A DNA stretch of 64,000 nt from Ilex aquifolium (Eukaryota > Streptophyta > Magnoliopsida > Aquifoliales > Aquifoliaceae). Position numbers and translations under genes: made by a program. The notes beneath the pieces were generated by a model. That model saw only the letters and a program-made list of their open reading frames with translations. It made no database searches and had not been told where the DNA came from. The stretch covers positions 40,291,173 to 40,355,172 of the forward strand of contig OX637395.1 in NCBI GenBank assembly GCA_951799425.1, given 5' to 3'. Of this stretch, positions 1-30,290 are shown piece after piece (positions within the stretch are counted from its first letter, which is position 1; every line of letters begins with the position of its first letter).

Positions 1-799
1 AATTCATGGGGTACATAAAACTGTCATTATGCGTAAATTCAACCCCATTATGCTTCAAAATCTTGGTAATTAATATTGAAAATGGAAGACATGGCCTGCA
101 ATCCTCGACGGTAGATGATTCGCGAACATGGTTGAATATGTAAAGGGGTAGATCAATAATAACCCGATTATCACCAATAGCATGTAATAGTTGGGCCGTA
201 TCGTATCCAATCTCAGCAGTATGCCCCCTTGGATGAATATTACAAGCAACAATTCGGTTTATCATCCTAAACGTTAGATTAAGGTCAATGTGAGCAATTT
301 TGCTTTTCTCATTCACCCAATTGACACTCCCAATACAAATATGTCGAATAACCGTCGACATTTCAGGAACTTGCTCCTTACTTGAGTATGGAAAGACAAT
401 GGAATTCTCAGGAATGACTGGTCTATCAATTTTTATTATTTTTGAGATAACATCAGGCAAAACAGTTATGGCTTTCTTCCTAACCATTGTCTTAAATGTC
501 AGCTCATTCTCTTTGTAGTCATGAATATTTGCATAAAAATACCTAACAAGATCAACAAATGCTTTATTTTGCACATTCACTTCAAACAAAGGATCCCATT
601 TTCGTTCCCGGAGTATTTCTGGGCAATCCACACTTCCTATTAGCTCATCAAGGTGAACACCACGCTCAAGTATAAAAGGACGTTTAACAATTAATGTATC
701 ATACCTCTTCTTCGCATCATTATCCACAAACTGTTTCGCATTGCCAGCACTGCCCCCCGTAGCCACCTTCTTCCGTTTCTTCGTCTGTTCACCCGACAT
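1..799 (-). CDS. Putative plant transposon protein (PF20167-like), 3' end cut by window edge
   Basis: Reading the minus strand from the ATG at 799-797 gives an uninterrupted frame of 266 codons that runs off the left edge. It begins MSGEQTKKRKKVA, a short basic stretch, then shows LIVKRPFILERGVHLDEL, RKWDPLFEVN and LVRYFYANIHDY. Further on comes a hydrophobic part ending LPFSILITKILKHNGVEF. The order 'ERG..L..L, W..LF, V..FYAN, L...ILITKI...GV' is what I remember of the 'putative plant transposon protein' domain (PF20167), which accompanies plant mobile elements and has no established biochemical role. An in-frame TGA lies a few codons upstream of the ATG, which supports this start. No intron is needed. 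The neighbouring satellite-like arrays fit a transposon-rich setting. The family call is from memory of motifs; that the frame is open and coding-like is seen directly. Confidence 0.72.
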   Translation of the reverse strand, partial: MSGEQTKKRKKVATGGSAGNAKQFVDNDAKKRYDTLIVKRPFILERGVHLDELIGSVDCPEILRERKWDPLFEVNVQNKAFVDLVRYFYANIHDYKENELTFKTMVRKKAITVLPDVISKIIKIDRPVIPENSIVFPYSSKEQVPEMSTVIRHICIGSVNWVNEKSKIAHIDLNLTFRMINRIVACNIHPRGHTAEIGYDTAQLLHAIGDNRVIIDLPLYIFNHVRESSTVEDCRPCLPFSILITKILKHNGVEFTHNDSFMYPMN

Positions 800-824
800 C
801 AGCAAAGCTCCAAAGGGATTCACA

Positions 825-905
825 ACGAACAATGCAAGATTCACAATGGCAGATTCACAATGGAAGATTCAAAACGAACAATGGAAGATTCACAATGGAA
901 GTAGT
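825..905. repeat. Short imperfect repeats upstream of the transposon protein gene
   Basis: A unit close to GATTCACAATGG recurs about five times in tandem (with CAAAACGAACAATGG variants), just upstream of the minus-strand transposon protein start. The rest of 906-1200 shows no convincing gene: the two small plus-strand frames there have no recognisable content. Confidence 0.6.
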
Positions 906-1219
906 GTGTGTAGGCATCGCATTTCTGTACCCGATCTCATGAAAGGTATTTCGGGTGGTTGGCGATTTTGGGTTTATGGAATTCGGAGATTTTGATTGGG
1001 TTTTGTAGGATTTGGAATTGGTTTTTCAGTATTTGGAATGGGTTTTTCTTGGTGTACAGGATTTGGAAGGGATTTTTGAATGGCTTCGGTTGGTGCGAGT
1101 TGATTAGGGCTTATTTCCTACGATTTGGGGATTTATTTGTGGATACTGCGAGTTAATTTACTACAATACCCCCATTACAACGCTTCAATCAATTCCTCTT
1201 TGAGGGCATTTACGTAAAT

Positions 1220-2270
1220 ACATAATACCTGATCGGTCATATTTACTTTCGATCGATCAAAATTCCACTTCCCATTCAACTTCTACCTCAGTAACTCAAA
1301 TGATCGATCAGGCATCCCTTGTATGATCGATCAGATGTCCCCAGTCAATATGAATTCTGATCTGTAACATTTTTGATCGATCAATATAAATATTTGATCG
1401 ATCATATATCACAGTATTAAGATCTGCAACCAACTGATCGATCAAATACATATATCTGATCGATCAGATGTCCCCAGTTCTTCAGAGTTCTTATCTTCAA
1501 CAACTGCAACTATTTGATCGATCATAATAAATATATGATCGATCAGATGTCCCCAGTACTTATGAGTTATGGTCTGTAACATTTTGATCGATCAATATAA
1601 ATATTTGATCGATCATATATCACAGTATTAAGATCTGCAACCAACTGATCGATCAAATACATATATCTGATCGATCAGATGTCCCCAGTTCTTCAGAGTT
1701 CTTATCTTCAACAACTGCAACTATTTGATCGATCATAATAAATATATGATCGATCAGATGTCCCCAGTACTTATGAGTTATGGTCTGTAACATTTTGATC
1801 GATCAATATAAATATTTGATCGATCATATATCACAGTATTAAGATCTGCAACCAACTGATCGATCAAATACATATATCTGATCGATCAGATATCCCCAGT
1901 TCTTCAGAGTTCTTATCTTCAACAACTGCAACTATTTGATCGATCATAATAAATATATGATCGATCAGATGTCCCCAGTACTTATGAGTTATGGTCTGTA
2001 ACATTTTGATCGATCTATATAAATATTTGATCGATCGTTTTCAAAAAATGATAGATCAAATAAGTATTCTGTGATGGATCAAATTCGAGTTTTGTACATA
2101 TTTGATCAATCATGTTTTTATACGATCGATCAGACCGCCACAGTACTTTTAATCTCTGATTGAAACAACTGTGACATTCTGATCGATCAGACTTTATGTT
2201 TGATCGATCTATTTCATGTAAATCGATTTTGCTCCTTCACAGAAAGTATATTGATCGATCGAACATATAA
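1220..2270. repeat. 211-bp tandem repeat array rich in paired GATCGATC palindromes
   Basis: Near-identical 211-bp units start at 1375, 1586, 1797 and (partial) 2008, giving three full copies and degenerate flanks. Each unit holds three pairs of the 8-bp palindrome GATCGATC. Members of a pair lie 21, 22 and 21 bp apart centre to centre, while spacing between pairs is 40, 58 and 49 bp. The units also share the phrase CAGATGTCCCCAGT. Copies differ by only a few bases, so amplification is recent. Nothing in the array looks coding. It could be a satellite or the subterminal repeat block of a transposon. Confidence 0.9.
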
Positions 2271-3640
2271 TATGATCGATCATGGACCATCAAAAATTGT
2301 AAAAAAATACCATTCCTTTAGTAAATGCTTCCCCTCATTAGTTGTAAATATTCCCATAAAAGTGGTAAACGATCCATTAAAGTTGTATATATTATTGGAT
2401 ATTCATTACTTACGAACACCCATGAGTGCCATGATCGATCGAACATCTTATGTGATCGATCATGGACCATTAAAACTTGTAAAAAAATATCATTCCTTTA
2501 GTAAATGCTTCCCCCATTAGTTATAAATCGTCCTGTAAAAGTGGTAAAAGATCAATTAAAGTTGTATATATTATTGGATATCCATTAGTTACGAACACAC
2601 ATGAGTGCCATGATCGATCGAACATATTCAATGATTGATCATGGACCATTAAAACTTGTAAAAAAATACCATTCCTTTAGGAAATACTTCCCCCCATTAG
2701 TTTTAAATATTCCCATAAAAGTGGTAAACGATCCATTAAAGTTGTATATATTATTGGATATCCATTAGTTACGAACACCCATGAGTGCCATGATCGATCG
2801 AACATCTTATGTGATCGATCATGGAACATTAAAACTTGTAAAAAAATACCATTCCTTTAGTAAATACTTCCCCCCATTAGTTGTAAATATTCCCATCAAA
2901 GTGGTAAACGATCCATTAAAGTTGTATATATTATTGGATATCCATTAGTTACGAACACACATGAGTGCCATGATCGATCGTACATCTTATGTGATCGATC
3001 ATGGACCATTAAAACTTGTAAAAAAATACCATTCCTTTAGTAAATGCTTCCCCCCATTAGTTGTAAATATTCCCATCAAAGTGGTAAACGATCCATTAAA
3101 GTTGTATATATTATTGGATATCCATTACTTACGAACACACATGAGTGCCATGATCGATCGAACATCTTATGTGATCGATCATGGACCATTAAAACTTGTA
3201 AAAAAATACCATTCCTTTAGTAAATGCTTCCCCCCATTAGTTGTAAATATTCCAATCAAAGTGGTAAACGATCCATTAAAGTTGTATATATTATTGGATA
3301 TCCATTAGTTACGAACACACATGAGTGCCATGATCGATCGAACATCTTATGTGATCGATCATGGACCATTAAAACTTGTAAAAAAATACCATTCCTTTAG
3401 TAAATGCTTCCCCCCATTAGTTGTAAATATTCCCATTAAAGTGGTAAATGATCCATTAAACTTGTATATATTATTGGATATCCATTACTTACGAACACAC
3501 ATGAGTGCCATGATCGATCGAACATATTCAATGATCGATCATGGACCATTAAAACTTGTAAAAAAATACCATTGTTTTAGTAAATACTACTCCCTGTTAG
3601 TCGTAAATATTCCCATAAAGTGGTAAATGATCCATTGAAA
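2242..3640. repeat. 180-bp tandem repeat array with the same paired GATCGATC motif
   Basis: The landmark ATGAGTGCCATGATCGATCG recurs at about 2422, 2601, 2781, 2961, 3141, 3321 and 3501, a 180-bp period (the first step is 179). Most copies contain GATCGATC, a 13-bp spacer, then GATCGATC again, 21 bp apart centre to centre as in the preceding array; the rest of the unit is unrelated to the 211-bp unit. Because 180 is divisible by three, several copies read as open frames with a repeating 60-residue peptide. That is a consequence of the period, not evidence for a gene. 180 bp is close to the monomer length of many plant centromeric satellites, but seven copies do not show centromeric identity. 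Confidence 0.9.
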
Positions 3641-3800
3641 TTGTAAATTTTCCTATAAAAGCGGTAAATGATCCATTCCCGTGGTAAATGATCCATTGAA
3701 GTTGTAAATATTCCTATAAAAGTGGTAAATGATCCATTGACGTTGCAAATATTCCCTTAAAAGTGGTAAATGATCCATTGAAGTTGTATATCCTCTTGGG
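3600..3800. repeat. Degenerate short repeats at the tail of the 180-bp array
   Basis: About four copies of a 40-45 bp phrase (GTTGTAAATATTCC, then AAAGTGGTAAATGATCCATT) follow the last 180-bp unit. The phrase is a sub-segment of that unit, so the right edge of the array has been rebuilt from a shorter piece. GATCGATC is absent here. Confidence 0.75.
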
Positions 3801-3907
3801 TTACTCATATCTTACGTTAGAATCTGGCAGAAGGCTACAGGTCACTCCGGTTGCCTTTGCTCTACCTTTACACGTGTCCCTCTTTGCATCATGCTGCAGA
3901 GTTTTAT

Positions 3908-4892
3908 TCAGCTTTTAGCCTGCACAGTGGATTTCGGTACCATACCGAAAAGTGAAATGGCTGTACCGTAGTCGCCTCCTAATATTGCAGTGGCTAATAA
4001 CTTTGCTTGTTTCCTGCCATTAGCAAATCCTGGTACTTCTGTCCACAGAGGCCATCTATATGACTTGGCCGCCAGTACTATACAAACTAAAAACGGCAGA
4101 GGGGAATATGATCGATGCTTCCCAAAAACAGAAGTTCCAACCATAACTTCAACAGTAATCTCCAAAACAGCATTTGGAATTCCTAGATACTGAAATGTAT
4201 CAGGTAATAGGGATAATCCGTGCCTGAAGGCACAATGCAACTAAAAAAAATTGAACATTAAATTTGAACGCAAAATAATCAAACACTGAACTCGGACACG
4301 TACTAAACTGAAAGCCTAAACTCGACCTATATCACGTGTCTGAAAGCACTGTACATAGTTCTTAAACACGAAATAATCAAACAATAAATATAAACATGCA
4401 TTAAGCTGAAAATCGTTTGGTTATTTTTAATGTCACGACTTTAGTGAAATAAAAAGAGTCAAAATGTGAACACTCTATAAGAAACTTTCAATTTTTCGGC
4501 AGAGTGTCTTCTGAAAATATGATGCCACAAATATATCAACCTGTCTACAAAACTTATATATTTCATAATCATAATCAAATCATGTCATATGCACATTGAA
4601 ATCCAACTATGTACCAATTACCACAACACCATTCTTTCTACACAAACAACTATATCCATACTTGTAAAAGTGACAGACAGATCATAAGATTCTTAAAAAT
4701 ATAAATAACCTCAAACATGAGGACTCCTAGGGTGTGCCATTTCTTCCCAGCAGACCATGTTGTGTGGATTTCCTCGCCTACTTCGATATAGTTGTGTAAT
4801 TTCTTCAAATCACATAGCAAATATAAATAAGCTATTGGTTATAACAAATCTACACTATAGTACTCCATAATTTTCTCAGCCAATTCAATTAC
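3908..4892 (-). CDS. 3' exons of an unidentified multi-exon plant gene
   Basis: Three minus-strand exons join in phase 0 and end in a TGA. 4892-4854 (13 codons, VIELAEKIMEYYS) follows a GAACAG acceptor. 4802-4710 (31 codons) contains KLHNYIEVGEEIHTTW and ends GVLMFE before a GT donor. 4240-3908 starts LHCAFRHGLSLLPDTF after a TTTTTTAG acceptor. The last exon has a moderately hydrophobic middle (PLPFLVCIVLAA) and ends STVQAKS. Clean splice sites, consistent phase and protein-like composition argue for a real gene. I do not recognise the family. Further exons should lie upstream on the same strand. Possible ones are near 6065-6135 (YFDYGRNCISVDELRSRIR before a GTGAG donor), near 8517-8567 and near 9101-9139, but these are tentative and leave gaps. 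Confidence 0.6.
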
Positions 4893-6349: not shown

Positions 6350-6776
6350 TAAGGGCCTGTTTGGTTTGCGTTTCAAAAACAGGTATCCGAAAACAGTTTT
6401 TGAGAAGAGTTTTGAGAAAATGGTTTTGATATTTTTTGAGATAAAAAACTTGTTTGGTTAGATGATTTCAAAAACAGTTTTACAGAACAGAAAATAGTAA
6501 AACCTGTTTGGACAGCCTAAATATATGTTTGAACAGTAATTCAAACATTAATAAAAAAATATAAGAAAGTTATTTTTAGATTGATAATTTCATAAAAAAA
6601 AAAATTCAATAAACCAAACTTTAAAATATAATATATCTTATAATATAATATAATATATTATATTATAATATTCTATTATATATTATATATTATATAATAT
6701 ATAATATTTATATATATTATATTCTATTATATTATATAATATATTTACACATATATATATTATATTATATTATATA

Positions 6777-6831
<55 letters not shown>

Positions 6832-7873
6832 TTATACATATATGTATTTATACATATATATACATATACATATATGTATAAATATATATGTATATATATA
6901 TTAGGAGAGAGAGGAAGAAGTAAAAAATGTATATGTATATATATGTACATATATATGTAGATATATACCTATTTATACATATATATAATATATTAATACA
7001 TATATAATATATATATAATATAATATATATATTTATACATATAAATTGGTATATATATGTATATATATGTACATATATGTATGTATTTGGGTGTACATAT
7101 ATATATGTACATATATACCTATTTATACATATATATAATATATATATACATTATGTATATATATATTATATATATGTATAATATAATATATATATTTATA
7201 CATATATATACATATAAATATATATATATATATATATTTATACATATATGTATAAATACATATATGTATATATATATATGTAATATGTATGTATAATATA
7301 TATATATTATATGTATATGTAATATGTATATATATATGTAATATGTATATATATATATACATATATGTATATGTATACATACATAATATGTATATATATA
7401 TATGTAATATGTATGTATACATATACATATATGTATATATATATATACATATTACATATATGTATATGTATATATATATATATATGTATTACATACATAT
7501 ATATACATATACATATATGTATATATATATATATACATATACATATATGTATAAATATATATATATATATTTATATATATATATATATATTAGGAGAGAG
7601 AGGAAGAAGTAAAAAAAAAAATGAATGAAAAAATTTGCTGCTAAGGAGATTCGAAGGGCAGACCTCATTAAAGTCCAAAATTGTTCTCCTTGTTTTCAAA
7701 ATTTTCAAAGAAAACTCCGAAAACAAGTTAAACTTGTTTTCTATTTCTTTGACTCAAATCTCATTTTTTCCGAAAATTTTGAGAACAAAAATGCTAAACA
7801 AACAGGATTTGGGTGTTTTTAAAATTTTGAGAACAAAAAACTGTTTTGCAGACGCAAACCAAACATGGCCTAA
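6350..7873. mobile_element. PIF/Harbinger (Tourist-like) MITE enlarged by an internal microsatellite
   Basis: The left end GGGCCTGTTTGGTTTGCGT (6353-6371) is matched by the inverted right end ACGCAAACCAAACATGGCC (7852-7870), one mismatch in 19. TAA flanks both sides (6350-6352 and 7871-7873), the TWA target duplication of PIF/Harbinger elements. Next to both ends are sub-terminal segments rich in TTTTGAGAA/TTCTCAAAA. The interior is dominated by a TA/CA/TG microsatellite, and the phrase TTAGGAGAGAGAGGAAGAAG occurs twice (about 6900 and 7590), which suggests internal duplication. No transposase is encoded, so it is non-autonomous. Confidence 0.82.
6775..7600. repeat. Long TA/CA/TG compound microsatellite inside the MITE
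   Basis: About 800 bp of alternating purine-pyrimidine sequence: a CA run at 6779-6812, then TATATG/TATACA mixtures up to 7590. The many open frames here, all Tyr/Ile/Met/His peptides, are artefacts of TAT/ATA/CAT/TGT composition. Large parts are self-complementary and could extrude cruciforms. Confidence 0.9.
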
Positions 7874-14810: not shown

Positions 14811-17800
14811 ATGGAAGATGACGCCGTTTCACCCTCCGATCCCAGCGATTCGAGCGAAGAGTTCACCTATGACGACGAAGAAGATCTCAACTACAAATCT
14901 GACGACGATGATAACGATGATGATGAACGATCCACCGTCCGTTCAGCTCCGCCAAATGAAGATCGAAAATCGCAGAACGTGATTGCTCTTCTCAGGTTCA
15001 TAAGCTCGATTTGCTTTTCAATGAAGAATTCTTCTATATTTTTTTAGTTATTTTCTTTATTGACGTCAATTCTCACCATGGGAGCTTTTCGGTTTCAATC
15101 TAGGGTTTGAAACTTCTTCAGTAAATTGTGTAATCCTTTTTGCTATACAGTAATTTCTGCATGCTAATTACTCTCTCTCTCTCTCTCTCTCTCTGTATGA
15201 CAACAAAATGTGCGTACACACATGTTCATACACACGAATGCTTATATTGTACACTAATAATTTCTGAATTGGAGGGTTCAACTAGTATTTTGTTTTGTCA
15301 GAGGCAATATTGTCGTCAAAAGACAGTCGCTACTTCCACGAGTTTATTCAGTAACAGAGACTGCAGCAAATGTTAGAAAGCCCTTTAAACCTCCCTGTTC
15401 TAATGGTTACATCGACAAAAATGAACAATTGGTTCGTCGTCTCTGGGCTCGAAAACGCTTTGTGCCCTGGGGCTCGACAAGGCCGGCCTTAGTTCCAATT
15501 ACAAATCGGCTACATGTTCCTGTTGAAGAAGAACCATCAGAAGAGATTGTGGACTTGCCCCCAGGGTTTGAACCTTTGGTGTTGTGGCAGCCGGAAGATT
15601 TTGAAGAGGGAGACTGTAATGCAGTGTCGATAGCTGTGGAACCTTTGCTTGTTAATTTCCTGCGGCCCCATCAAAGGTATATCATGTGGTAGAGAAATAG
15701 TAGCATTTGGTTTTTGACAACTGAGGTGTGCACCATGCAACCTGATGACATTAATAGGTACCTTATGATGCCAGAAAAGCATCATCACCATCTTAGCTTC
15801 CAGCCTTCCACAACCCCTAACCCAGTTCTATCATTAAACATGCATGGCGAAGGCATGTTTCTGTATCAGTTTGTAAAATTATGTTGCCACAATGTCAGCT
15901 AATGGAACTGATCAGTGCCATGCCACGAGTCTTAAACTTTTCTATGTTTGTACCTTAATTCTGTTAAATATTATTTTTCTATGTTTTTTTATGGATGCTT
16001 GAATTAGTATTGGGATGTAAATGAGGGACAAGTTATCTGATGAAGAGAGAACATTAATAGTTGGAGGCTATCTTGAAATCTGACTTTTCTCTACTTGATT
16101 TTCTGAAAAGCTTTGTTTAACTTTGCTTGCAGAGAAGGGGTCCAGTTCATGTTTGAATGCGTTTCAGGGTTATGCAGTGGTGCCAATATCCATGGATGCA
16201 TTCTGGCTGATGACATGGGGTAGTAATATTACTAGGCATCTCTAGGGCCAATTTGTAACCAAGTATATGGAGTGATTTTCTAATTTATTATGTTTGAAGG
16301 GTTGTTAGCATTCTTGATTAATTTGGTGCAGGTTGGGAAAGACATTGCAGTCAATCACATTGTTGTATACGCTTCTTCGTCAGGGATTTGATGGTAAACC
16401 AATGGTTAAAAAAGCAATAGTCGTCACTCCTACCAGTCTTGTGAGCAATTGGGAGGCTGAAATTAAGAAATGGGTGGGGGAAAGACTTAAGCTTGTTGCT
16501 CTGTGTGAAAGCACTCGGGATGACGTTGTCTCCGGCATTGATAGTTTTATAAGTCCTCACAGTTTTTTACAGGTAAATTGGCAAAATTATTTGGGTTGTC
16601 TAGAATCAATAGTTTATTCATCTGTTCTTCTCCCAGGTATTGATTGTTTCCTATGAGACATTTCGGATGCATTCATCCAAATTCAGTCAAAGTGGATCGT
16701 GTGACCTTCTTATATGTGACGAGGCTCATAGGCTGAAAAATGATCAGACATTGACTAATCGGGTAAGACTTGTTGATTTAATGTTTAAATTGAATTCAAG
16801 TGTTCTTCTATGATTTCTTATTTATTATATCTGTTTTTAAGATTGCTTATGACACTATTTGGATCAGGCATTGGCTGCCCTATCATGCAAGCGACGCATT
16901 CTGTTGTCTGGGACTCCAATGCAAGTGAGAGCCATTTGGGCATGGTTATTGATATGTCTGTTATCAAATTCTTGTTCTTTTTTTTTTTTTTTTGTGATGC
17001 AAACTTTTCTTCACCTTCCACATCTGAAATCCAGAATGATCTAGAAGAGTTCTATGCAATGGTTAATTTTACCAATCCAGGGATCTTGGGTGATGCTGCA
17101 TATTTTCGGCGTCATTATGAGGTGATTTTACCTATTTACCTTTTTCATTATTCGGGACAATGAATATGTACCTTCCGAAAACAAAGACAATGGATATGAA
17201 TCTTACATACTCGTATTCTTGCTGCAACTTAATATTTTCTGGGGTTTACACAATACATCCCTCTTTTGTAATTATGTAGACACTGGATGTGAAATATATA
17301 GTTTGAACTACTACTACCAAGACTTACACTAATTAACTCTGTCAGCCTGTATGGTACACTATTCCATTTCTGATTTTGTTGATTTACCCTTATGAAGACC
17401 CCCATCATTTGTGGTAGAGAACCTACTGCCACTGCAGAAGAGAAGAAGCTAGGTGCTGAGCGTTCTGCAGAACTAAGTGCAAAAGTAAATCAGGTAAATG
17501 TCTAGCTGAATATGATGCAATTCTAGAAGCTGATTTCCATAGTTTGTGATCAGAAAGCATGCCGGCCCTGAACACTGTTCTCTGGGATGCAATTTGCTTT
17601 CCACTTCTAAACAAAGTGTTCTTCTTTGGACCTGATCCATAAGGTTGTGTTTTCAGTTTATATTGAGGAGGACTAATGCATTGCTGTCAAATCACTTACC
17701 ACCAAAGGTAGGGTTATTATCTTAATCTGTTATTCCCCTGTATTCTTCTGATCTTGCATATATAGCACAACATATCAGCTCGCCTCCAGGATTTATTTAA

Positions 17801-20800
17801 CTAATGGAGCAAAAAGTTTTTGCTTGGAAACTACCTACTTTTCTTTTCATATAAATTGTTGTTTATTTCAGTTGTGTTGTGTGCTGTTATGGATGGTACA
17901 AAGTTCAAATAGGCAGTTGTACATGATACCCTCAATAGTTCTCAATACCTCTTTGAAGTATATGTAAGAGTGCTTGGCAAAAATTTTGTTGAGAAATATC
18001 TTCAACTTGGTCGTTATTGCTGCATAAATGGTCGATGCTTTGAGCTTAAAGTTTGAATTTCTTTTGTTGAACTTGCATTTTTGTTCTGTTATCACTCACA
18101 AGGTTTTGCCCCTACAGTATCTTGTCCCCATCCTTTTTTGTGTTTATCCCTGTGGTGTTTGGATTAATGACAGACTTTTTTCCTAGTTGGCTATTGGAAC
18201 AGTGATTTGGAGAGGGGAGTATGTGCATTGCACCAATGAATTTAAATTTCACTTTAAGTTGTCCAAAAAGAAGGTTCACTTAAGGGACATTTCTTTTTAC
18301 GCATCAAAATTAGAATTTGTCCATTTGTGCTGACCAGTTATGGTTGTTATTAACAGTTTAAATAATTACAATTCACCACTTCTGAAATGTAATTGCTCCT
18401 GCAGATAGTTGAAGTTGTTTGTTGCAAGTTGACTCCTCTCCAGTCAGCACTTTACAATCATTTTATACACTCAAAAAATGTAAATTCCAAGTCCTCCAAA
18501 TTGACTATGCATTTAAAGGTGCAAAAGTTTCTGACCAAAAGTGGTATACTTGACACTTCAACTTTTGTTTTTACTCCTAAATACAGGTTAAACAAGCAAT
18601 TACTGAGGAGATGAAGAAATCAAAAATCTTAGCTTACATAACAGCTTTAAAGAAGCTCTGCAATCATCCAAAGGTATAACATTTTGGAAGTATAGTATTC
18701 TTTAGAGTTAGAATTTTCCTCTATGTGATTCCACTTACCTAAGAGTTGAGAAAATGGTGCATCCATAGCCTCGGGTATATTTATTTACATTGCTAAATAT
18801 TTTTGGAGAAGTTTTATATGTGCTCTACTAAGTGTAGCTCAGCAAAACTTTCCATGATGGAATGAGAATAGATACAAACATTTTGAGGATGCTGTAACCT
18901 TTCGGCCACCCATGATATGACATGCATTAGTTTCTCAATGAACTGCCAGGATGAAATGAAAGCATGGTTTGTGGGGATGATTAATGAGAGATTTCGGATT
19001 AGAATCCTTTTTGAGAATCAGGATAAACCCCTGCATTCAACCTATATGCATTCAGTTGGGTACTTGAGTTGAATTGAGTGTGAAGACAGTAGATGAAACA
19101 CATATTACTCCCTAAAAGAAAGGAACAAGGTCATTATAGTTGGTTGTTTCCATTTTTGTTGTTTTTTTCTGAATTTTGTTAAGGCTCTTACAAAGTTTGA
19201 TTCATTTGTGAAAGTTATTTTTGTTTGGGTCACTTTTCCAATGAAGAAAGATGTAGAAACATTTTGTAGTAAACAAAATATATGCATTCACATAGAAGAG
19301 AACTGTGTTGCACTTGCACCTCTACAGAAACAATTTTCACTAGATATGAACTCTTGCAGATGCACAGATGCATCAGAATGATTCACAATGCTGATATTTG
19401 GGGAACATTTGGTTCATTTGGCAGCAGAAACTAGAAAACAAAGTGGGAAATATATATGCACAACATAGATATTGCGTATAGATATATGCATTTAAATGTG
19501 TTTGCTTCTTATGTTCATTCTGTGTAAGATACGGAAACCACTGTTATCTCATGTGAAATAAATATATGCTGAAGCTGATATATGACACAATAAGAAGTGG
19601 GAGTCCAGGAACATCAGCATTTGAGGACTGTTTGCACATTTTTCCTCCAGAAATGTTCTCTGGAAGGTAGGCCATTTGTGATTATATTGTTGTGTATGGT
19701 TTCTTGTCCGTGAATTTCATATTAAGAAACTTAACCCAAAAAAAATCATATTACAAATGTTTGGCATTCTGTTAGATCTGGATCATGGACTGGTGGTGAT
19801 GGTCTTTGGGTTGAACTATCAGGGAAAATGCATGTCTTAGCCCGCTTACTGGCACAGCTCCGTCAGAGAACAGATGACCGAATTGTCCTAGTCTCAAATT
19901 ACACACAGGTATTAAGATGGGTTCTCATCATTATCCATGATTGTATATTCCTAGTACTTTGCATTTGTTATGCCAAGTTCCCATTGTTAGGATATGGATC
20001 TTTTTTCAATCACTTATATCCACTCTTTACTCTGCTTCATAAATCGTCTGTCTTTCATTGATTCCTCTAGTTCAGGGTCTCCACGGATCTTGTCAATTGT
20101 TTATGGTCAGTGGTATGACGTGTATAACAAATAATGATTCTGACTTCTGGGGATAAATTATCGAACCCTGTTGCTAATTGATCCCCTGTCTATTTAGCAG
20201 TTACTTGTATTGTTTACCAGTGAAGAAACTTGCAGTCGATACTTCTCTTTTTTTTGTTAAATATAATAGCTGTGATTCACCAGACACTGGACCTCTTTGC
20301 TCAATTGTGTCGTGAAAGAAGATATCCATTCTTAAGGCTTGATGGAACTACATCAATTAGTAAAAGGCAAAAGTTGGTCAACCATTTTAATGATCCATCA
20401 AAGGTATGTAGATTGTCTGTCCTTCGAATCATTACCTGTTATATGACCTCACCTCTTAAGACAATATGTATTAAGAGCAGCAAGTTTAATGATTCATCTT
20501 CAGGATGAGTTCGTGTTTCTCTTGAGCAGCAAGGCTGGAGGCTGTGGTCTCAATTTGATTGGTGGAAACCGACTGGTCTTGTTTGATCCTGACTGGAACC
20601 CGGCAAATGACAAACAAGTAATCATTTCACTAGACTTTGCACATAAAGCTGTGATGTCAGTCGTAAAAGGAACATAATTTTGCTTAGCATAGAATTGTGT
20701 TCTCTTTTAATCCTTATGCAGGCTGCTGCAAGGGTCTGGAGGGATGGTCAGAAGAAGCGAGTATACATCTATAGATTTTTGAGTACTGGAACCATTGAAG

Positions 20801-23266
20801 AAAAGGTTTGATGTAGCAGTATCTTTAGCCAAAACAATATTTTCTTGGTTTATTGCACTCATAATGCTCTGTGGTCCATCAATAGTGATCCACCTTAAGC
20901 TCAACAGATGCAGTATTTTAATTTTTCGGCAGGTGTACCAGCGTCAGATGTCAAAGGAAGGGCTTCAAACGGTTATTCAGCAGGAACAGACAGATTCTAA
21001 GACCCAGGTACCCGTTTTCCTGCTTTCTTCTTGTCTTATATGTGGCAGTGCTCTTCAAGGCCTAAAATCAAGGGTTCTAATTGCAGGGAAACTTTCTTTC
21101 AACAGAAGATTTACGTGACCTGTTCACATTTCATGATACTGTCAGGTGTGCACTCATTTAATATCTATTATCGAATGCATTAGTGCGAAGTCATCTGTGT
21201 ATGAAAGCAATTTAATGATGAATGAGCAGGTGAAGGGAAAGGTTTTCATGGCTCTACACGTACATGGTTTCTCACTTATGTAAATAGAAGTAAAAAGGTT
21301 TATTTTTATGTTCAAGCCTGTTAAAATTTCCAAGGCAACTTACAGCCTTGATGCAGAAATCTCTCTCTCTCTCAAAACACATTTTATGTTTCAATATTGG
21401 ATATGCTATTACTGATGGCAGTCATGTTGTATGCACTGTTGATGTCCTATGCACTAGAAACAATGATTAGACCTCTGAAACATCCAATGCAACCATACTG
21501 ATTTACAGTCTTCTGAAGTTCATAATTTGTTTCCTTCAGTTGGTTAGTGTCAGACAATTTTTTAGGCTAGTTCCAGGAGCCCCAGCTGTTATGCAATGTT
21601 TATAAATGATTCGTTGAATAAAGGACTAGTGTTTTCCTGATTAACTGGTCTCATGACAGTACAGGAATGAAACAATTATGATGTTCTTCTTCCTTTAAAT
21701 CCAGCTTTCCTACTGTTTTTCATGTTCTGCTTTCAAACTGTGGATTGAAACATGCTCCATCCATAACCTTTCAATACATGCTCTAATTAATGGGTTCTAG
21801 AAATATAGTTTTATTACTCATCTTTGTTAATAGTGTCTTTTCTAATGGACACTGTCTGTATAGATCTGAAATTCATGAAAAGATGAGTTGCAACCGTTGC
21901 CAAAAATATGAGGTAATGCTAGATGACCGGTTTGAGAATATAGATGAGGTAGGGGAAATTAAATCGACAAATGCAGACTGTCAGGCTGATCAGGAGGATA
22001 TAGGGGGATTTGCGAGCATGGTTGGGTGCTTGCATAAGTTAAAAAGCTCAGAGAAACAGGTTTGTGATTATATTATATGCACTGGCACCAAAATTCTTGT
22101 TTAAGTGACATTTTGTTCTTATATGAAGCTATGAACCTTTTTTATTCTAGGTGGGAACTCCGAAAGAAGAAGATTTAGGTAACTGGGGGCATCATTTTTT
22201 CCCCACATCAGTACCTGATGCTATTTTTCAAGCTTCAGCCGGAGATGAGGTGTGCCAAGAAATTAAAAATTTCCAGTGAAGCTGGATTTTTTCTCTTTTT
22301 CACTTTCAGGGAGGATGTCAATTAAAATTCAAAGCCAAGTTCATCAGGGCTTGATAGGTTTCCAATGTTAGAGTTACCACATATAAGGGTCCACTCACAC
22401 ACAATTTTTTAAGATTAACACTAAATTTATGATTACTCATGTTTAGCATAATTTAACTTTTTGTAGTACTTAAAACCTGTAATACCGAAGTGCAAGACCA
22501 GAAAAAAAAAATTGAACCGAAAAGAAAAGAAATTGTACCCCCACTTAAATTGTGATGCATTAAACATAATTTTACCAAGACCAGACTATCAATTATACCA
22601 TCTTTTGCTTTTGAATTGTGATGCATTAAACATCCACTGCTTCCCCACTTAAACCCTTCCAAAATCTTGCCAACAGTCATTTAAAATGTAAATATATCAG
22701 CTTGCCTGCTTGTGTGAAGAATTACATAATTTTCACTAGTAAGAAAAACAAAATCATTGCATGCACTTCACCTTGAATATGAGTAATCATATTTTATGCG
22801 TTTTGATTAATTGTTATTTTTTTATCTCACCAGAGGGAGGTTGGACTAACATAAAACTCCAATATTGTTGTTGTTGCAGGTCTCCTTTGTTTTCACTAAT
22901 CAAGTAGATGGCAAGCTTGTGCCAGTTGAATCAAAAGTAAGGCCAATGGTAGAACTAGTTGAAGGAAACAAGAACCAAACCACTTCAAAGGAAAATCTAA
23001 CACGGAAATTCATGTTACCGTCTCAACGTCAACCCTCACTTCCATCAATCTCTTCCCATGGAATTTCTATGGGGGGCCCATTTCCTGCTTCTTTCAAGCA
23101 TTTGCAAAGACCGTTTACAAAAGTAACAGAAGGTAAAACTCATGTAGCATTGAAACCTACACTCTCTAAAACTCATGTAGCATTGAAACCTAAACTCTCT
23201 CTTGCAAATCAATTACCCCAAAAAAGATTGTCTCCTGACTGTGTCAGTGATGATGATTTTCAGTAA
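14811..23266 (+). CDS. RAD54: DNA repair and recombination protein RAD54 (SNF2 family), 21 exons
   Basis: An ATP-driven DNA translocase that works with RAD51 in homologous recombination in the nucleus. Exons: 14811-14995, 15302-15676, 16133-16219, 16332-16572, 16637-16762, 16868-16924, 17035-17121, 17398-17493, 17657-17707, 18405-18479, 18587-18673, 19575-19666, 19776-19908, 20284-20403, 20504-20617, 20722-20805, 20933-21007, 21087-21145, 21864-22059, 22151-22249, 22880-23266. They total 2826 nt, exactly 942 codons with the stop, close to Arabidopsis RAD54 (about 910 residues). The N-terminus is acidic ([20 protein letters not shown]). ATPase motifs: DDMGLGKT (Lys219), DEAHRLKN (324-327), SGTPMQ, and in the second lobe [41 protein letters not shown] and RVWRDGQKK. 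All expected helicase motifs are intact. The C-terminal exon 21 is Ser/Pro/Lys-rich. All splice sites are GT-AG. Exon boundaries with AAG acceptors (exons 8 and 12) are the least certain. Confidence 0.96.
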
Positions 23267-24370
23267 ATTTTGGGTATTTCAAATTATTATTTTTTCGTTT
23301 CACATGAACATGTGGTTATTAACTAGTTAAAGGTGCTAGATCATCTCAATTTTAAAATTGGCAAGTTTGATCTAGTTCAAGCATCCATCTTTAAATTCAT
23401 TGGACTCCAGTAATAGGTAGGTTTTGACGAGCCTCTTTGAAACCAAATGAGTTTAAGAGCTAACCGAAACCTAGAACATTTTGAAATTGAGAGGATCCAA
23501 ACTTGACTTAGCAAGAGTTAAGCAAGCACCGTGTGAGACTTTGAGCACTTCCAACGATAGGTTCTTTTGTCTCTATTGATGGCTCTTTGGGTATATATAT
23601 ATTTGGACCCAAACTTTTGCCTGTGATTTAGGAAGACAAATGCGTTGGTGTAAGCCATTCCTTAAGTTTGGCTGGTTCTCTTAGTCTTATTGCATGATGT
23701 TGGATAGAGGGAATACTTCAAAGGATATGGCAACATTCATAGCACCGGAGCTCTCCCTTGATCTGACATTGGAAAACGTGCCCAGAACACAAATGTGATA
23801 GAAGATATAGAAGGTTCTTAAATTATTAGTACATACAGACAAAGCCTGCCTAAAGGATAGGAGACCAAAAGTAGACAAGGCCTTAGACCAGGCTTTATTC
23901 CACTTGTTCATTGAGAAAAAGATACTTTTTCATACGAAATGGGACTGCGCCGAAAGTTTTTTTCAGCTATTATATAGGAAGTTACTAGTCTATAGACAAG
24001 TTGCATTTTGATCCCAATTTTGTTGAACCGTCTATCCCCTTGGTCCAATTTCTGTCAAGTTCCCTGAAGAGTTTTTACGGATGTAGTGTTAGGAATCAGC
24101 CACTTGTCACAATACCAGTTGGCAATCCGCCGAAATTCCCTGAGAAGAGGATGAACCATGTGAGAGTCAGTAGTATGATTCAAGGGAAGTGGAATCCTTT
24201 GACTGTACTCCTATTATTTAGTCAGCTTCCCATACTCAGTCTTATTTGTTTTTTCAATAGTCAATCAATGAGAAAGGCTAATTACACGTGAGCTTTAGCT
24301 GTAACTTTAAGTCTTTAATTGCCTCTTTTTGCTATGCATTGTCTTGTGTGTGGACAAGGCTTTTTTTTTT

Positions 24371-24401
<31 letters not shown>

Positions 24402-25950
24402 GGGGCGGAGAAAAGAACTTCATAGAAAATGTAACAGGAATAATTAGCTTAATGTTATTTATACCTAATTTAATTTGATTAGCAATGATCATATTCATTA
24501 TTAGACTCGTTTATTCATAGATAATAGTAAATTGGGTTAAAATACAGTGTTCATAAATAGGATTGAAGTAACATTATCCATTAGTTCATCTTAGTAAACA
24601 TGATACTAGAGGGAAATGTATAATTGGCATGCTTTTGACGGGTAGTTTAAACAGTAACAGGGACGAACTGTAAATTCAGACGTCTTGAGATCAAAGTTTG
24701 TTAATCTATTGGGATTAGGTTATGAGGAATTTATCTCTCATGAATATCTTAGTCTCGGCGTGAATGACCTGTCTTGTCCGAACCAGAAAGGGAATTAGTC
24801 GAAATACGCGTAAGTTAGTCAAGACACTCTTAACTATTGAACCAAAATAATAATAATAATAACAATAATTGGCATGTGATCAGGAGATTTTGCTGATTAC
24901 TTGTGGAGATATCATACTGAGAAGTGGGCTGTACATAAATTCGAAGAGCATATGCTTCCCATGTTCTGCACAACTGTCTTTGACTACCTTTCTCTAGTCA
25001 TCCAATTAGTCTTAAAAGTAGTGATGGTAACTCGTGGATTAGTTGGCACCTCCATTTTGGAACTTAAAACAAAGCAATGTAGCTAGCTCCAATGCAGAGA
25101 TCTGATCTGGGGAAGGCATTATTGGGGGTTTGATTACGATTACATATGAGTCCAAATGTAAAGGGTAAGAAAGGGTAAAGCTATTCAAAGTATTAATTTT
25201 TTTTATTTTTTTAGTTAGAGGGAGTTCAGACTTGTTCTGATTATTCTCTCGAACTCAGTGTATGTTACTATGGTTTAAATTGGGTTAAAAAAAGTATTAA
25301 ACTTTTATGAGAACTACTAATGCATAAATAATGTCAAACTAAGACAGATTTCTGTTTGAATAATTTTCGGTGCAAATTCTTCAAGTAATTGAGAGAGATA
25401 TCAATTTGATTTAATCATTCACATTAATTCGTGATAATTCACATTTATAGTTTGTTGAAAACTTTTGAAATGGCTGCTCAAGTTCAATAATGGTCAGTTA
25501 TAGTGGGGGTGCCCCATGATGGATCTTAGGAGAGGTGGGTCATGGCCAATTGGCCATCGTACTCCAAAGCTTTAGTAAATTCTTTTTTTTTTCTTTTTTT
25601 TAATATAATGATTTATAAATACTTTAAAATTATGTCAGTAAATTAATTGATTAATTTATAAATGCTTTACTACACTAAGGAATACCTTTCTTTTTATCAC
25701 TCAAAAAGAATAAAATACATATAAATTATTTTATTATTATTCATATGTTAATTGTTATGATAAATTAATTAAAAATGGAAGAAAATGAAGAGAAAAAAAA
25801 ATAAAGAGGGATGAATTGTAAATTTAGACACCATCTTTAAAAAAAAACATGAGGTTTTTTTTTAGTTTTTTTGGTGGGGGGTGGCGTGGGGTGGGGGAGG
25901 AGATGTGTGGTGTCAGTTTGTTTTGATGGCACTCAGTTAAAACAAGGACC
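23267..25950. other. Intergenic DNA between RAD54 and the next gene
   Basis: Mostly AT-rich with no convincing gene. A T-run joined to a G-run lies at 24361-24405. Minor frames (23687-23911 minus, 24001-24291 plus, 24901-25086 plus) have no recognisable content. Confidence 0.6.
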
Positions 25951-25956
25951 CCATTG

Positions 25957-25966
25957 TATAAATACT
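25957..25966 (+). promoter_or_regulatory. Probable TATA box of the small two-exon gene
   Basis: TATAAATACT stands 91-100 bp upstream of the ATG at 26057, with AC-rich leader-like sequence in between (about 25990-26050). Position and match to TATAWAWA fit a plant core promoter. Confidence 0.55.
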
Positions 25967-26056
25967 CGCATCTTCCATGTGAGGTCTTACAGTGAACCAG
26001 AAGAAACAAATAGCAAGTGATTGACTGTTCTTCTAAACGCAAAGGCATGTTTAAAC

Positions 26057-27408
26057 ATGTTCAACAACGATCAACAAGCCCTCTGCACTCCCATGGGTCC
26101 AAGAATCTCCTTCTCCAGCGACTTCTCCGATACCCAACAACAAATCACCAAGCACGACACCATCTACAGAGAAGCACCGGTGTCGTCGGATTTCGAGTTC
26201 TCCGTCTCCAGCGACTCAATGATCACCGCCGATGAGCTGTTCTTCAAGGGGAAGTTGCTGCCATTGAAGGATAACTGTGCGAAGATGACTCTGAGAGATG
26301 AGCTACTTGTCGCAGATGATGGTGATTATGAAGATGTGTTGCCGAGACTGCCGAGGAATTCGTGTCGGTGGAAGGAAAAGTTGGGTCTGAAGAGAAATCA
26401 GATTTTTCTGAAGAAATGCAATGGAAATGATAAGAGTTTGGATAGCATAGATGAAGTGAAAGAGCCTGTGTTTGTTCCTCATGAGGAGATCTATGCTGGT
26501 AACTTGACAGGTGAGATTGGCATTTTGTTTAGCTTTGGAATTACAAATTAATATTTGTTGAATCTAAGTTTTTTTTTTGGCTAACTGTTATCGAATCTAA
26601 GTTGTTGATCTAATGGATTGTTATATTTGGATCGGGTGGGTTTGAACATTGATGGCGTTCACAGCTAATCTAATCTAAGTCGTTGATCTAATGAATTGTT
26701 ATATTTGGATCTGATGGGTTCGAACATTGATGGCGTCCACAGCCAATCTAATTTACGTCGTTGATTTGATGAATTGTTATATTTGGATCGGATGGATTTG
26801 AACATTGATGGTGTTCACAGCCAATTTAATCCAAGTCGTTGATAACCGTTGGATTAGCGATGAGTTTCGATATTTAGATGTGATTCATGATAAATACAGA
26901 ACTACAATTCAATATAAAGTGAATGAGGATATACTATGGTAAAACAAAAAAGTTGAAGGAATTCGATTATATCAGTAGATTAAATTAGTAAATTAAATCT
27001 GATAATGAACCCCATAAACTCTTTTGAAAGTAATTTTTATCAAATGATGTTACTTGGTCTTATTTTACTAGTTTAATCCATTATTGTCGTTGATTAACAG
27101 TAAATCTAATTAGTAGACTGGAGTCTACGACTAATTCAACATTATAGCTCAAGTGTTAACATGAACGAACTGTAAATTTAGATGTTTTGAGTTTGAATTT
27201 TGTTAACTCTATTCCTCGTAAATACCTTAATTTGGGCACGGATATTCTACTTTTGATCAGATTGAGAAAAAAATTAGCTACGGTGCACACGTATACTGAT
27301 CCGAATATTACTGACCGTCATCATTGATTGGTTTCTTTCCTATAGGGGTTGTTAATTGTTTGTTTTTCTTTTTGGATTTCTGTCCTAAGTGCAGGAGCTA
27401 AATGCTGA
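26057..27408 (+). CDS. Small plant-specific protein of unknown function, two exons
   Basis: Exon 1 (26057-26510) encodes MFNNDQQALCTPMGPRISFS, then a Ser/Asp/Glu-rich part. APVSSDFEFSVSS is followed by MITADELFFKGKLLPLKDN and LPRNSCRWKEKLGLKRNQ. It ends NLTG at a GTGAGA donor. The best acceptor in phase is GTGCAG ending at 27394, which adds only AKC and a stop, giving a protein of about 154 residues. The segments 'SSDFEF-SVSS' and 'ADELFFKGKLLPL' recur in plant proteins annotated as membrane-associated kinase regulators or unknowns, so a regulatory, disordered protein is plausible, but no function is assigned. I remember AT3G19200/AT1G49500 as possible counterparts beside RAD54; this is unverified. 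The ATG at 26057 was chosen because the frame before it has no other ATG. An out-of-frame ATG lies 11 nt upstream. Confidence 0.7.
26590..26855. repeat. 78-bp tandem repeat in the intron of the small gene
   Basis: TTATATTTGGATC recurs at about 26621, 26699 and 26777, each followed by GAACATTGATGG and CACAGC. That gives a clear 78-bp period over three diverged copies, all inside the intron. Confidence 0.85.
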
Positions 27409-28380
27409 TGAGCAAAGCAAAGGAAGCGCTGCAGAATAACCATGATTTACCTGGAATGAGGACTTTTTGTTTTCGTATATTAGCTCTACTGTGTGAAGAG
27501 TCTGGTAGGCTTTTGGATGAATTTAGAGACATTATGATTTGATTTTTGCTTTAACTGTTACACTCCATCCATAGCAGCTACAGGGGTGTGTAAGTATGTT
27601 AAGGTTCATGATTTGTACAAATATTTGTAGGGCAAAAACTTCTATGTAAAAGTGAAGAGTGAACTCGGTTGCTACAGATAGTCCTCACATGATCCTCGAA
27701 CTAGGTTCCAAATTTCACTCATCTTTATGGTGTAATAAAGTTCTTTCAAAAAAAAACGCTTCCGTGTGTTTGTTAATCTAATCTAATGGAATAATCTCTT
27801 ATTATGTTTCTCTTTTGTCTGAAATTGGGTCTCTTCAAGTGCTACAATATCTCGGATATGAAGTTCATTTCACAGAATTTCAGAACATATAATAGTTTGA
27901 ACTTCCTAGAATCTGATATATATGCCACTTTATATATGATTTTTTTTGGTACTGGACTTTTTCCGAATTATAAGTGGTATTTACACTTTAAAGCACTAGT
28001 GCCACTCTTTTAACTTAAATTTCTTTGGGAGTTGAAATCTAAATGTTCTTATTGATTCCAAGTTGAAAGGCCTTTATTCCTACAGGCCCTAAGACATACT
28101 CTAACACATAGCACAGTTTTATTGTGTTGCTTTTTCGAAAATATCATCTTCAAGTCAATTGTTAATCTAAATTGTTACTCCATCTATTTGAACTTAGGTT
28201 GTTAATTTGATTTGTTGGCTTAATTAATTATTGTCATTAAATCGGTAAATGTATATTGATGATGCTAATTTGATTTGTTGGCTTAATCAATTATTGTCAT
28301 TAAATCGGTAATATATATTGATGATGCACAAATTGATTTTATACACTATCTGTCAAATTCAAATAATTAATGCAGTGAAT
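27409..28380. other. 3' region of the small gene and intergenic DNA
   Basis: Probable 3' untranslated sequence to about 27740, where AATAAA-like GTGTAATAAAGTTC precedes an A-run. A short duplicated phrase, AATTTGATTTGTTGGCTTAAT, appears near 28206 and 28266. No gene is seen. Confidence 0.5.
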
Positions 28381-28384
28381 AAAT

Positions 28385-28870
28385 AAAAAGAGTCAACATA
28401 AGCAAATCACAAATTAAGTAGTTCAATCAAGATGACCTACCCCACTGCGAAGGGTTAGGATGGCCTAAATGTTTTATTGCTTCAAAGAGTGTTGGCGAGA
28501 TACAAGATGTGAGAGATGTCCCCCATGTGTAGGTGGGGCTTACAATTTATAGGTGCATCCTAACAGATTGAGGTGTTTTAACAATAACATAAATGCTGAT
28601 TTGGTAGAGTTGGTGCCATCCTTGCAGCAGGTGAGGCAGTTGCAGAGAGGACGTGGAGATCTCCTCAAGACCAGGTTTTAGGATGGCGTGACTGACTTCC
28701 TCACTCCAGGATGACGTGATTGACTGGGTTCTCGGCAAGCTCGACTATGTTCGAGTCTCTTATGGGGCAGATCCACTGGGTCTGGGTTGAGCCCACTATT
28801 TTAGTTGGCCCTGATCTGAAGCGGACCCATTATCTGAGTTGGGTCTTGGGCCAGACCCATCATATATAGT
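28385..28870. mobile_element. Dispersed LTR-like repeat, copy B
   Basis: A diverged copy of the element at 11520-12135 in the same orientation. Shared blocks in order are GCGAAGGGTTAGG, TTTTATTGCTTCAA, GGGGCTTACAATTTATAG, GCATCCTAACAGATTGAGG, GGTAGAGTTGGTGCCATC and the GGTCTGGGTTGAGCCC-like end. No protein is encoded. Confidence 0.6.
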
Positions 28871-29474
28871 ATTATTGTTCAATCCATATCTTAAGTTGTA
28901 ATATTTGGACATTTGGAGTACGATATAAAATTAGAGAATACACAAACAGCGATCTGAGATGATGATAAAATGAAGAACGTAGACTGAGATATTGGATTTT
29001 TTCTTTTTTTATATATATATAAGTTGATAGATAACTAATGTGATTATTATATTTATTTTGATGCAAGGCAAAAATTCAGACAGTTGGGTTATATGCAAAT
29101 TTGAGAACAATTCTCACAAGCACCACAAGGTTTAGCATATCTCTCTGATCATTAGCATCATATTGACTGAGATTATTACACCATAATAATATAAACAAAT
29201 GGGATTTTTCGTATACAATAAAAAGGATAGAAAGTGAAATATATACTTTGAAATATGAATACATTTCAATCCAATTAGATTTTCGTATACAACAAAGGAC
29301 AGAAAAAAAGGAATATATATTTTGAAACATAATATATTTCAGACGTTATTATTAGATCAAAGTGTCATCTTTATTATTAGATCAAAATGTTGGTAGCAAT
29401 GTCATCTAGTGTCTAAAAATTTACCAAGTACCAAAACTATTTGTAGCCTAAGATTTTAGACAAAACCTATTTAT

Positions 29475-30290
29475 AGCTGAGGGTGTTCAAAATTCTGCTC
29501 GCCCGATCCGTTTCGCAACTTTTCAATTATACTCTATCCGATAATTCAACTCTCGCATTTTTTCAGTCGACTAATAGAATATTTTTTTAGTATTCTGCAA
29601 TTATCGGGTAGGAATGCGGAATACTTACACAATTTTTGTATTCTCACCTGACCCACTTGTATATTTATTTATTTATTTTTAAATAATGTGTGATATAAAA
29701 CGACTAGCGATATCTCGTGACTAAAGTCATTGTATACTGAATTATTACATTGTACATGCATTGGAATGTGTGTTAGAGTGTATGTATGTATGTGCATCTA
29801 TGTGTTGTGGAGTGTGTGTTGGATTTTTGAAATTTGGGAGGAAAAATGTGTGTTGGGTGTGTGAAATTTGGGGGGAAAAATATACCCCCCATAAGTTCAA
29901 ACTCTCATCTGTTTTATTATATAGATATTGTTTTGTTTGTCATAAAACAACGTCGTTTAGGAAACATATGACCCTGATTAAAAAAATAGGAAACATATGA
30001 TTGTGTTTTATTTATGGTGTTTTAGACTATTAGAGAACATATTAATCAGATTTATTGTGTTTTATTTAGTTTTATTAGTTTATTGTGTTGGTTTTATATA
30101 TTTTTATATTATATTTTAACAGTCTAGTTGTAAAAGTAGTCCTAAATTTGGTAATTGAGTTGTTAAAATGACCCAAAAATTAATAATTTAAAGTTTAAAA
30201 TTTTATTAAGCATTATGTATTCCTACCTGACCATCCAAGCCGATTTTTTGACGAAATTCGGCGCGGAATATTACCCTCAATCAGGTAGGG
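29475..30290. mobile_element. Possible degenerate transposon with poor terminal inverted repeats
   Basis: The left end TGAGGGTGTTCAAAATTC (from about 29478) resembles the inverted right end TGAGGGTAATATTCCG (about 30270-30285). The interior has no gene. The match is weak and no target duplication was found. The flanking stretch up to 31035 is AT-rich and gene-free, ending in the promoter of the SDR-MDR gene. Confidence 0.3.

Follow-up and report, generated by a model that had tools for sequence, protein, structure and literature searches.

Palindrome pairs spaced 20-21 bp apart in the subterminal tandem arrays of a large Mutator-like element of Ilex aquifolium

Sequence-specific anti-silencing has been worked out for the VANDAL elements of Arabidopsis, in which VANC21 is described as binding motifs densely placed in non-coding tandem repeats and as lowering methylation there (Hosaka 2017, PMC5735166; Sasaki 2023, PMC10398659). 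As portrayed in excerpts of those two reports, the VANC target arrays of the VANDAL21/VANDAL6 MULEs offer the closest likeness to the arrays of Ilex aquifolium considered here. Both the VANDALs and the Ilex element are MULEs with a dense, tandemly repeated short motif in non-coding regions, and in both the motif persists although the repeats differ from one related copy to the next (PMC5735166). A second motif of the Ilex element lies mostly in one orientation, as VANC21 motifs do, and contains AGTTGTAA, one base off the VANC6 motif AGTTGTAC. VANDALs encode DUF1985-type proteins, and the Ilex element has DUF1985-like matches that fall below the cut-off. TIRs are degenerate in VANDALs but well conserved in the Ilex elements. 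The VANC motifs are single and non-palindromic (YAGTATTAY and AGTTGT[CA]C), in contrast to the palindrome pairs 20-21 bp apart and the 20.4-bp lattice of the Ilex element, and its palindrome GATCGATC matched none of the known VANC motifs compared (YAGTATTAY, AGTTGTCC, and AGTTGTAC).

Other elements resemble the Ilex element in part, as far as excerpts of the reports on them go. In CACTA/Spm elements a non-transposase element protein, TNPA, binds repeated subterminal motifs that differ between families, and such proteins may serve defective copies in trans (PMC2613891). By analogy, the Ilex arrays would belong to a kind already known, the subterminal regulatory array of VANDAL and CACTA elements (PMC2613891). 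A CACTA/Spm assignment was nonetheless excluded by the terminus, GGAGC... and not CACTA, and by a TSD of 9 bp versus 3 bp, and the transposase is that of a MULE. The long, internally repetitive inverted ends of Galileo provide many sites for an element protein (THAP), but Galileo is an insect element of the P superfamily in which the transposase does the binding, and the excerpted report makes no mention of palindrome pairs (PMC3688188). Sireviruses share clustered short CpG palindromes in plant element non-coding sequence but are retrotransposons with a CGG-CCG core (PMC2829016). In literature represented mainly by titles and abstracts, we found no description of a palindrome pair at 20-21 bp with a 20.4-bp lattice, and the titles and abstracts on PF20167 and on MULEs with ULP1/DUF1985 gave no account of the element. 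Judged by its likeness to the VANC system, the Ilex arrangement would be a set of docking sites in helical phase, at which an element-encoded protein keeps the ends active or protects them from silencing, and we assign this reading a probability of roughly 0.57.

The window, a stretch of 64,000 nucleotides (C5:40291173-40355172), comes from a genome searched over 800 Mb in 103 contigs. The arrays, at window positions 1251-3540, form the right subterminal region of a Mutator-like element (MULE) of 46,147 bp, here called c5 (C5:40249005-40295151). The right-hand part of c5 fills positions 1-3979, with the remainder lying to the left of the window, and the element is bounded by TIRs and an exact 9-bp TSD at both ends. 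Its outer TIR, GGAGGCGACTACGGTACA, occupies 3962-3979 on the minus strand and ends with the final base of the element at 3979. The 9-bp TSD, TAATATTGC, follows at 3980-3988 on the plus strand and is identical to C5:40248996-40249004. The two termini read GGAGCCGACTACGGTACAGCC and GGAGGCGACTACGGTACAGCC, and the arrays recur in inverted orientation at the left end, with 82% identity over 1.8 kb. Within the right TIR, a terminal palindrome, TTTCGGTACCATACCGAAA, at 3932-3950 is a candidate MURA site; with variants, it lies near the element end in the TIRs of the elements examined, as would suit a transposase site. Elsewhere in the window, positions 6626-7590 consist of an AT-rich dinucleotide repeat, about 1 kb long and partly self-complementary, and no known RNA family reached its gathering score within the 64 kb.

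The element was assigned to the MULEs because of its 9-bp TSDs, its TIRs and its MULE transposase. The interior of c5 encodes a FAR1 domain, a MULE transposase with a SWIM finger, DUF1985-like exons, Ulp1/C48 peptidase pieces and PF20167, with the transposase gene in pieces. In a relative, c1d (C1:7338042-7367511, 29,470 bp, TSD TAGAATGTG), an 801-aa frame scored 95.1 bits for PF10551 (cut-off 27.6), 78.4 for FAR1 and 20.6 for SWIM. The TIR pattern GGAGCNGACTACGGTACA occurs at 54 sites, several of them forming inverted pairs about 29-30 kb apart; c5 spans 46 kb, compared with about 29-30 kb between the TIRs of several copies, because of insertions. A nested Ty3-like retroelement lies at C5:40265044-40279292 (element positions 16040-30288), and the 2.1-kb direct repeats around it, 99.5% identical, take in part of a DUF1985-like exon, an unusual feature for simple LTRs. 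Exact 9-bp TSDs were found for c5, c1d, c1e, c1f (C1:5817215-5837891, TSD TAAGGATAA), four further elements and four short elements. The TSD of c1b matches at 8 of 9 positions, that of c1c is exact only if the right terminus is shortened, and that of c1a is unmatched.

All 41 exact copies of GATCGATC in the window lie within 1251-3540, against an expectation of 0.42 from shuffles, and the exact palindrome is absent from the remaining 60 kb. The inner edge of the arrays (1251-1332) has exact palindromes at 1251, 1302 and 1325. A 211-bp tandem array of 3.4 copies, delimited by TRF and motif positions, follows at 1322-2036. Its unit consists of three diverged subunits of 70, 61 and 80 bp (TRF also reported a period of about 70 bp) and contains three GATCGATC pairs, two spaced 21 bp and one 22 bp, the last exemplified by 1436/1458. 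In the transition zone (2029-2281), perfect and imperfect pairs stand 20-21 bp apart: the palindrome at 2029 is paired with GATAGATC at 2050 (21 bp), GATCAATC at 2104 with the palindrome at 2124 (20 bp), and 2181/2202 and 2253/2274 are both spaced 21 bp. The 180-bp tandem array found by TRF at 2252-3645 comprises 7.8 copies of a unit made of one GATCGATC pair (21 bp) and second-motif copies. All seven of its exact pairs, between 2253 and 3533, are spaced 21 bp, and an eighth palindrome (2612) has an imperfect partner, GATTGATC, at 2633.

An earlier, sequence-only reading of this stretch had proposed a spacing of 21 bp. The proposal describes the seven exact pairs of the 180-bp array and is slightly too strict for the 211-bp array, with its one 22-bp pair per unit; overall, a range of 20-21 bp fits better. 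The same reading's 12-13-bp spacer for the imperfect pairs of the transition zone agrees with 2029/2050 and 2104/2124, and its steps of 40, 58 and 49 bp between pairs were recovered as described. It had also held that the two arrays share almost no sequence, and this was largely confirmed. Once the palindromes had been masked, the 211- and 180-bp units gave local alignment scores of 26 in the forward direction (reached by 13 of 500 mononucleotide shuffles) and 22 in reverse (53 of 500), whereas the scores of the unmasked units were reached by none of 500. The units thus have little in common except the motif, with a possible weak residual likeness in the forward direction.

When the genome was scanned with the N13 spacer that the sequence-only reading had described, GATCGATC-N13-GATCGATC was found at 1519 places and the reversed control pattern at none. 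Forty-eight of the first 50 places fell inside six TIR-bounded elements (c1a 2, c1b 4, c1c 12, c1d 12, c1e 14 and c1f 4). That the arrays sit at the ends of a transposon is in line with the earlier reading. The other two were in c1g, where the single TIR within the fetched 10 kb lies 0.4 kb from one N13 site and 8.8 kb from the other. A second sample was drawn from the TIR sites without regard to palindromes: seven of the 54 had already been fetched, and the next 20 of the remaining 47 were taken in list order. Shared exact TSDs join four pairs among these 20 ends (GTGTAAGAT, AATCTTTAA, TTGAATTAT and ATATGGATA). Palindromes were present in 13 of the 20, each with pairs at 20/21 bp.

The spacing was then counted across both sets of loci. 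Among the first-fetched loci, 112 of 123 neighboring exact palindromes 9-28 bp apart were at 20 or 21 bp (17 bp, 2; 18 bp, 2; 20 bp, 34; 21 bp, 78; 22 bp, 5; 23 bp, 2), a set biased toward 21 bp in that its C1 loci were found via the N13 pattern. The TIR-selected ends are free of this bias and gave 114 of 129 at 20/21 bp (17 bp, 8; 20 bp, 15; 21 bp, 99; 22 bp, 5; 23 bp, 2). Both counts take in tandem copies and related elements, and distinct spacers are the safer measure; of these, 51 of 57 in the first set and 34 of 39 in the second were at 20/21 bp. These figures uphold the suggestion that the pair is the conserved unit and that its spacing approximates two helical turns. Overlaps of palindromes by 4 bp (GATCGATCGATC) also occur, as do recurrent steps of 29, 49-51, 54 and 58 bp.

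Palindromes lacking an exact partner gave a similar picture. Seven elements together contain 298 exact sites, of which 54 distinct ones lack an exact partner 17-23 bp away; for 40 of these, a partner with at most two mismatches lies at 20 or 21 bp. Other two-offset windows averaged 4.1 of 54, the best without 20 or 21 reaching 14 at 48-49.

A second-motif array lies outward of the palindromes at 3603-3788 (minus strand), with a 20/41/61-bp lattice evident from TRF periods of 20, 41 and 61 and from lattice analysis, and the motif TTTAC[AC]ACTTTAATGG reads from the element end inward. Allowing up to three mismatches, we counted 277 copies in 14 element ends versus two in one mononucleotide shuffle, using a consensus read off the very ends in which it was counted. 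Most copies (245 of 277) run from the end inward. Up to 122 bp, the distances between copies follow a period of about 20.4 bp (best fit 20.25-20.5 over 355 intervals), and in the TIR-selected ends 409 of 523 intervals, tandem copies included, lay within 1.5 bp of a lattice multiple, where chance would give about 15%. In 13 of the 14 ends, the leading autocorrelation shifts included 20, 21 or 41 bp. Only six copies were found in c1f. By inspection, the reverse complement of the motif contains AGTTGTAA, which has seven of the eight letters of the VANC6 AC-type motif AGTTGTAC; a match of this kind has a chance of a few per cent by hand estimate, and we treat the apparent likeness as a lead only.

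The pairs might instead be additional sites for the MURA transposase, through its FAR1 domain, assembling a higher-order synaptic complex as proposed for Galileo. In keeping with such a role, the arrays are inverted at the two ends and are retained where no transposase frame is listed, and Galileo, in the excerpts of its report, supplies a precedent in THAP sites within tandem repeats (PMC3688188). The seven TIR-selected ends without palindromes bear on this point. Four belong to closed miniature MULEs, L033 (434 bp), L037 (431 bp), L038 (409 bp) and L043 (430 bp), which have a related GGAGCA TIR, exact 9-bp TSDs and four to nine second-motif copies per fetched piece, and from which GATCGATC is absent. 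A fifth, L032, resembles these short elements with its far end unmatched, and L027 and L031 have other interiors. Miniatures with exact TSDs and no palindrome argue against an obligatory transposase site. The earlier suggestion of a dimeric DNA-binding protein or transposase is weakened by them in its second half, while a dimeric or tetrameric binder would still be the natural reading. The palindrome-free miniatures do, however, form a GGAGCA subfamily that might use another transposase: among the TIR-selected ends, all 13 with sites start GGAGCC and all seven without start GGAGCA, with exceptions outside that sample in c1a (GGAGCA) and c1b (GGAGCT), which carry sites. On balance we consider the role of the pairs as transposase sites rather unlikely, if still worth keeping in view.

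The position of the arrays relative to genes raises another alternative, that a host transcription factor binds the pairs and that the element exploits them as an enhancer for its two outermost genes. In the window, a PF20167 (Transposase_32) open frame runs from 2 to 799 on the minus strand (88.1 bits, cut-off 45) and continues left beyond the window. It begins MSGEQTKKRKK, an NLS-like stretch, and its start codon is about 450 bp from the first palindrome, as the sequence-only reading had noted of a transposon protein gene, so that the array lies upstream of the gene. PF20167 adjoins the inner array edge in all three elements with coding interiors (c5, c1d and c1f). In c1d the arrays lie upstream of PF20167 at one end and of DUF1985-like gene B at the opposite end, both genes pointing inward. 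An enhancer upstream of inward-pointing PF20167 and DUF1985-like/Ulp1 genes would have a precedent in MuDR, whose TIRs are reported, in excerpted literature, to hold promoters and enhancer motifs. Against this stand the 48 of the first 50 (of 1519) N13 pairs that lie within MULEs, and the retention of pairs in copies without a listed gene: in c1a, c1b and c1e, the frame listing gave no frame of at least 90 aa outside array-like sequence, and the TIR and the pairs are kept. Use of the pairs by a host factor is in our estimation improbable.

PF20167 itself was dropped as a marker of the system. Among 6661 first-look candidates in the genome there were at least 150 scored matches to the family, the lowest listed at 107 bits, above the 88 of the window copy, and an Athila retrotransposon ORF in sunflower is reported, in an excerpted source, with PF20167. 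The tie between the palindrome pairs and PF20167 elements that had been drawn from the window was not supported as a general rule; the family is spread far wider, and the element is a MULE by its TSDs, TIRs and transposase.

A further possibility is that the pairs are passengers of satellite-like amplification, the motif surviving by descent or homogenization. The arrays are tandem repeats whose units are common to ends and copies, as that would require. The motif was compared with the remainder of the 180-bp unit. The motif-free core of this unit is present in 39 near-full copies in c1d, c5, c1e and c1b, with a mean identity of 91.5%. Of the 94 distinct palindrome slots beside these cores, 84 are exact (the same count with and without a permitted 3-bp shift), eight have one mismatch and two have more. 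Core 8-mers were exact in 51% on average, and in 29% for the 14 windows holding a CpG. Sixteen of the 127 core 8-mer windows were about as well kept as the palindrome (at least 90%), which favors passenger status, but the 84 of 94 exact slots against 51% for other 8-mers, and the imperfect partners still at 20/21 bp, speak the other way. So do the 51 distinct spacers at 20/21 bp and the 211- and 180-bp units that share little beyond the motif.

The argument from CpG retention is uneven across elements. With motifs masked, CpG observed/expected was lowest in c1a, c1b and c1c (0.12-0.24). It was 0.37-0.49 in c1e; c5 and c1d each had one end in this range and the other at 0.75-0.78, and c1f reached 1.00-1.18. 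Window sequence outside the element gave 0.47, much like the 0.37-0.49 group. In 37 distinct imperfect pairs, 25 of 43 changes fell at the central CG, 14 of them C>T or G>A.

The diverged relative c1f has the gene order of c1d, with identities of 73% for PF20167, 81% for MURA, 76% for DUF1985-like A, and 84% and 57% in two parts for B. Its arrays match the inner arrays of c1d piecewise, mostly at 65-79%, and scarcely align with the outer 180-bp array. Despite this divergence and undepleted CpG outside the motif, c1f keeps its 20/21-bp pairs, so that the palindromes have outlasted their spacers; this too counts against mere passengers, which we regard as very improbable. Values of dN/dS between c1d and c1f were 0.26-0.68 and are hard to read, as several c1f frames contain stops.

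Perfect palindromes in dozens of repeats might also act as DNA structure (cruciform or fold-back), but a palindrome of 8 bp is too short to form a stable cruciform, a structure that needs no fixed 20-21-bp phase, and we give this idea, together with that of an assembly artefact, almost no credence. The artefact was raised by GATCGATC also being a proximity-ligation junction sequence, named as a Chicago library junction in one plant genome paper and present within a primer in another, according to excerpts of both; it was ruled out by the phased tandem arrays at both ends of several TSD-bounded copies.

We accordingly return to docking of an element-encoded protein at the arrays as the preferred reading, a host-encoded binder being less likely. 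Each GATCGATC palindrome would be a symmetric site for one protein dimer, and a pair spaced 20-21 bp would align two dimers along a single DNA face. The sites at both element ends would have multiplied through tandem amplification of differing spacers, and the bound protein, modeled on VANC21, would keep those ends active. That a protein binds, that it does so as dimers, which protein it is and that it counters silencing are points we infer from the arrangement of the sites and the VANC precedent.

Several element proteins could conceivably act on TGATCGATCA pairs: the PF20167 protein, both DUF1985-like/Ulp1 proteins, and MURA. The PF20167 protein of c1d (366 aa) has a basic NLS-like start, the domain at 65-255 and, by eye, a coiled-coil-like C-terminal stretch, features that make it a candidate binder. 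A single-sequence structure model of the window PF20167 protein was of too low confidence (pLDDT 28.7) to bear on a DNA-binding fold. The DUF1985-like/Ulp1 proteins are candidates as well; Ulp1/C48-like pieces follow each of the DUF1985-like exons A and B. The DUF1985 matches of the c5 and c1d exons scored 19.5-21.7 bits against a Pfam cut-off of 35.1, with PMD scoring nearly as well in two, and exon A of c1f gave a weak match only to PMD and chance-level families and none to DUF1985.

A bolder and doubtful extension would assign a reader to each motif. A PF20167 coiled-coil dimer would read the GATCGATC pairs and the DUF1985-like/Ulp1 protein AGT[TG]GTAA every 20.4 bp, coating the ends on one face for kilobases and keeping out nucleosomes and RNA-directed DNA methylation, while Ulp1 would locally strip SUMO from silencing factors. 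If true, a second lineage of MULEs would have an anti-silencing system, one whose spacing code goes beyond what the excerpts of the VANC papers describe (PMC5735166, PMC10398659).

The Ilex elements form a very large MULE lineage in which evolution has already parted the signal, a palindrome in a 20-21-bp phase, from its carrier, the repeat unit. The system offers defined sites, candidate proteins and natural controls, in the form of copies with sites but no listed gene and miniatures without sites. Such controls may allow tests of the way in which a transposon labels its own sequence for a protein acting in trans.
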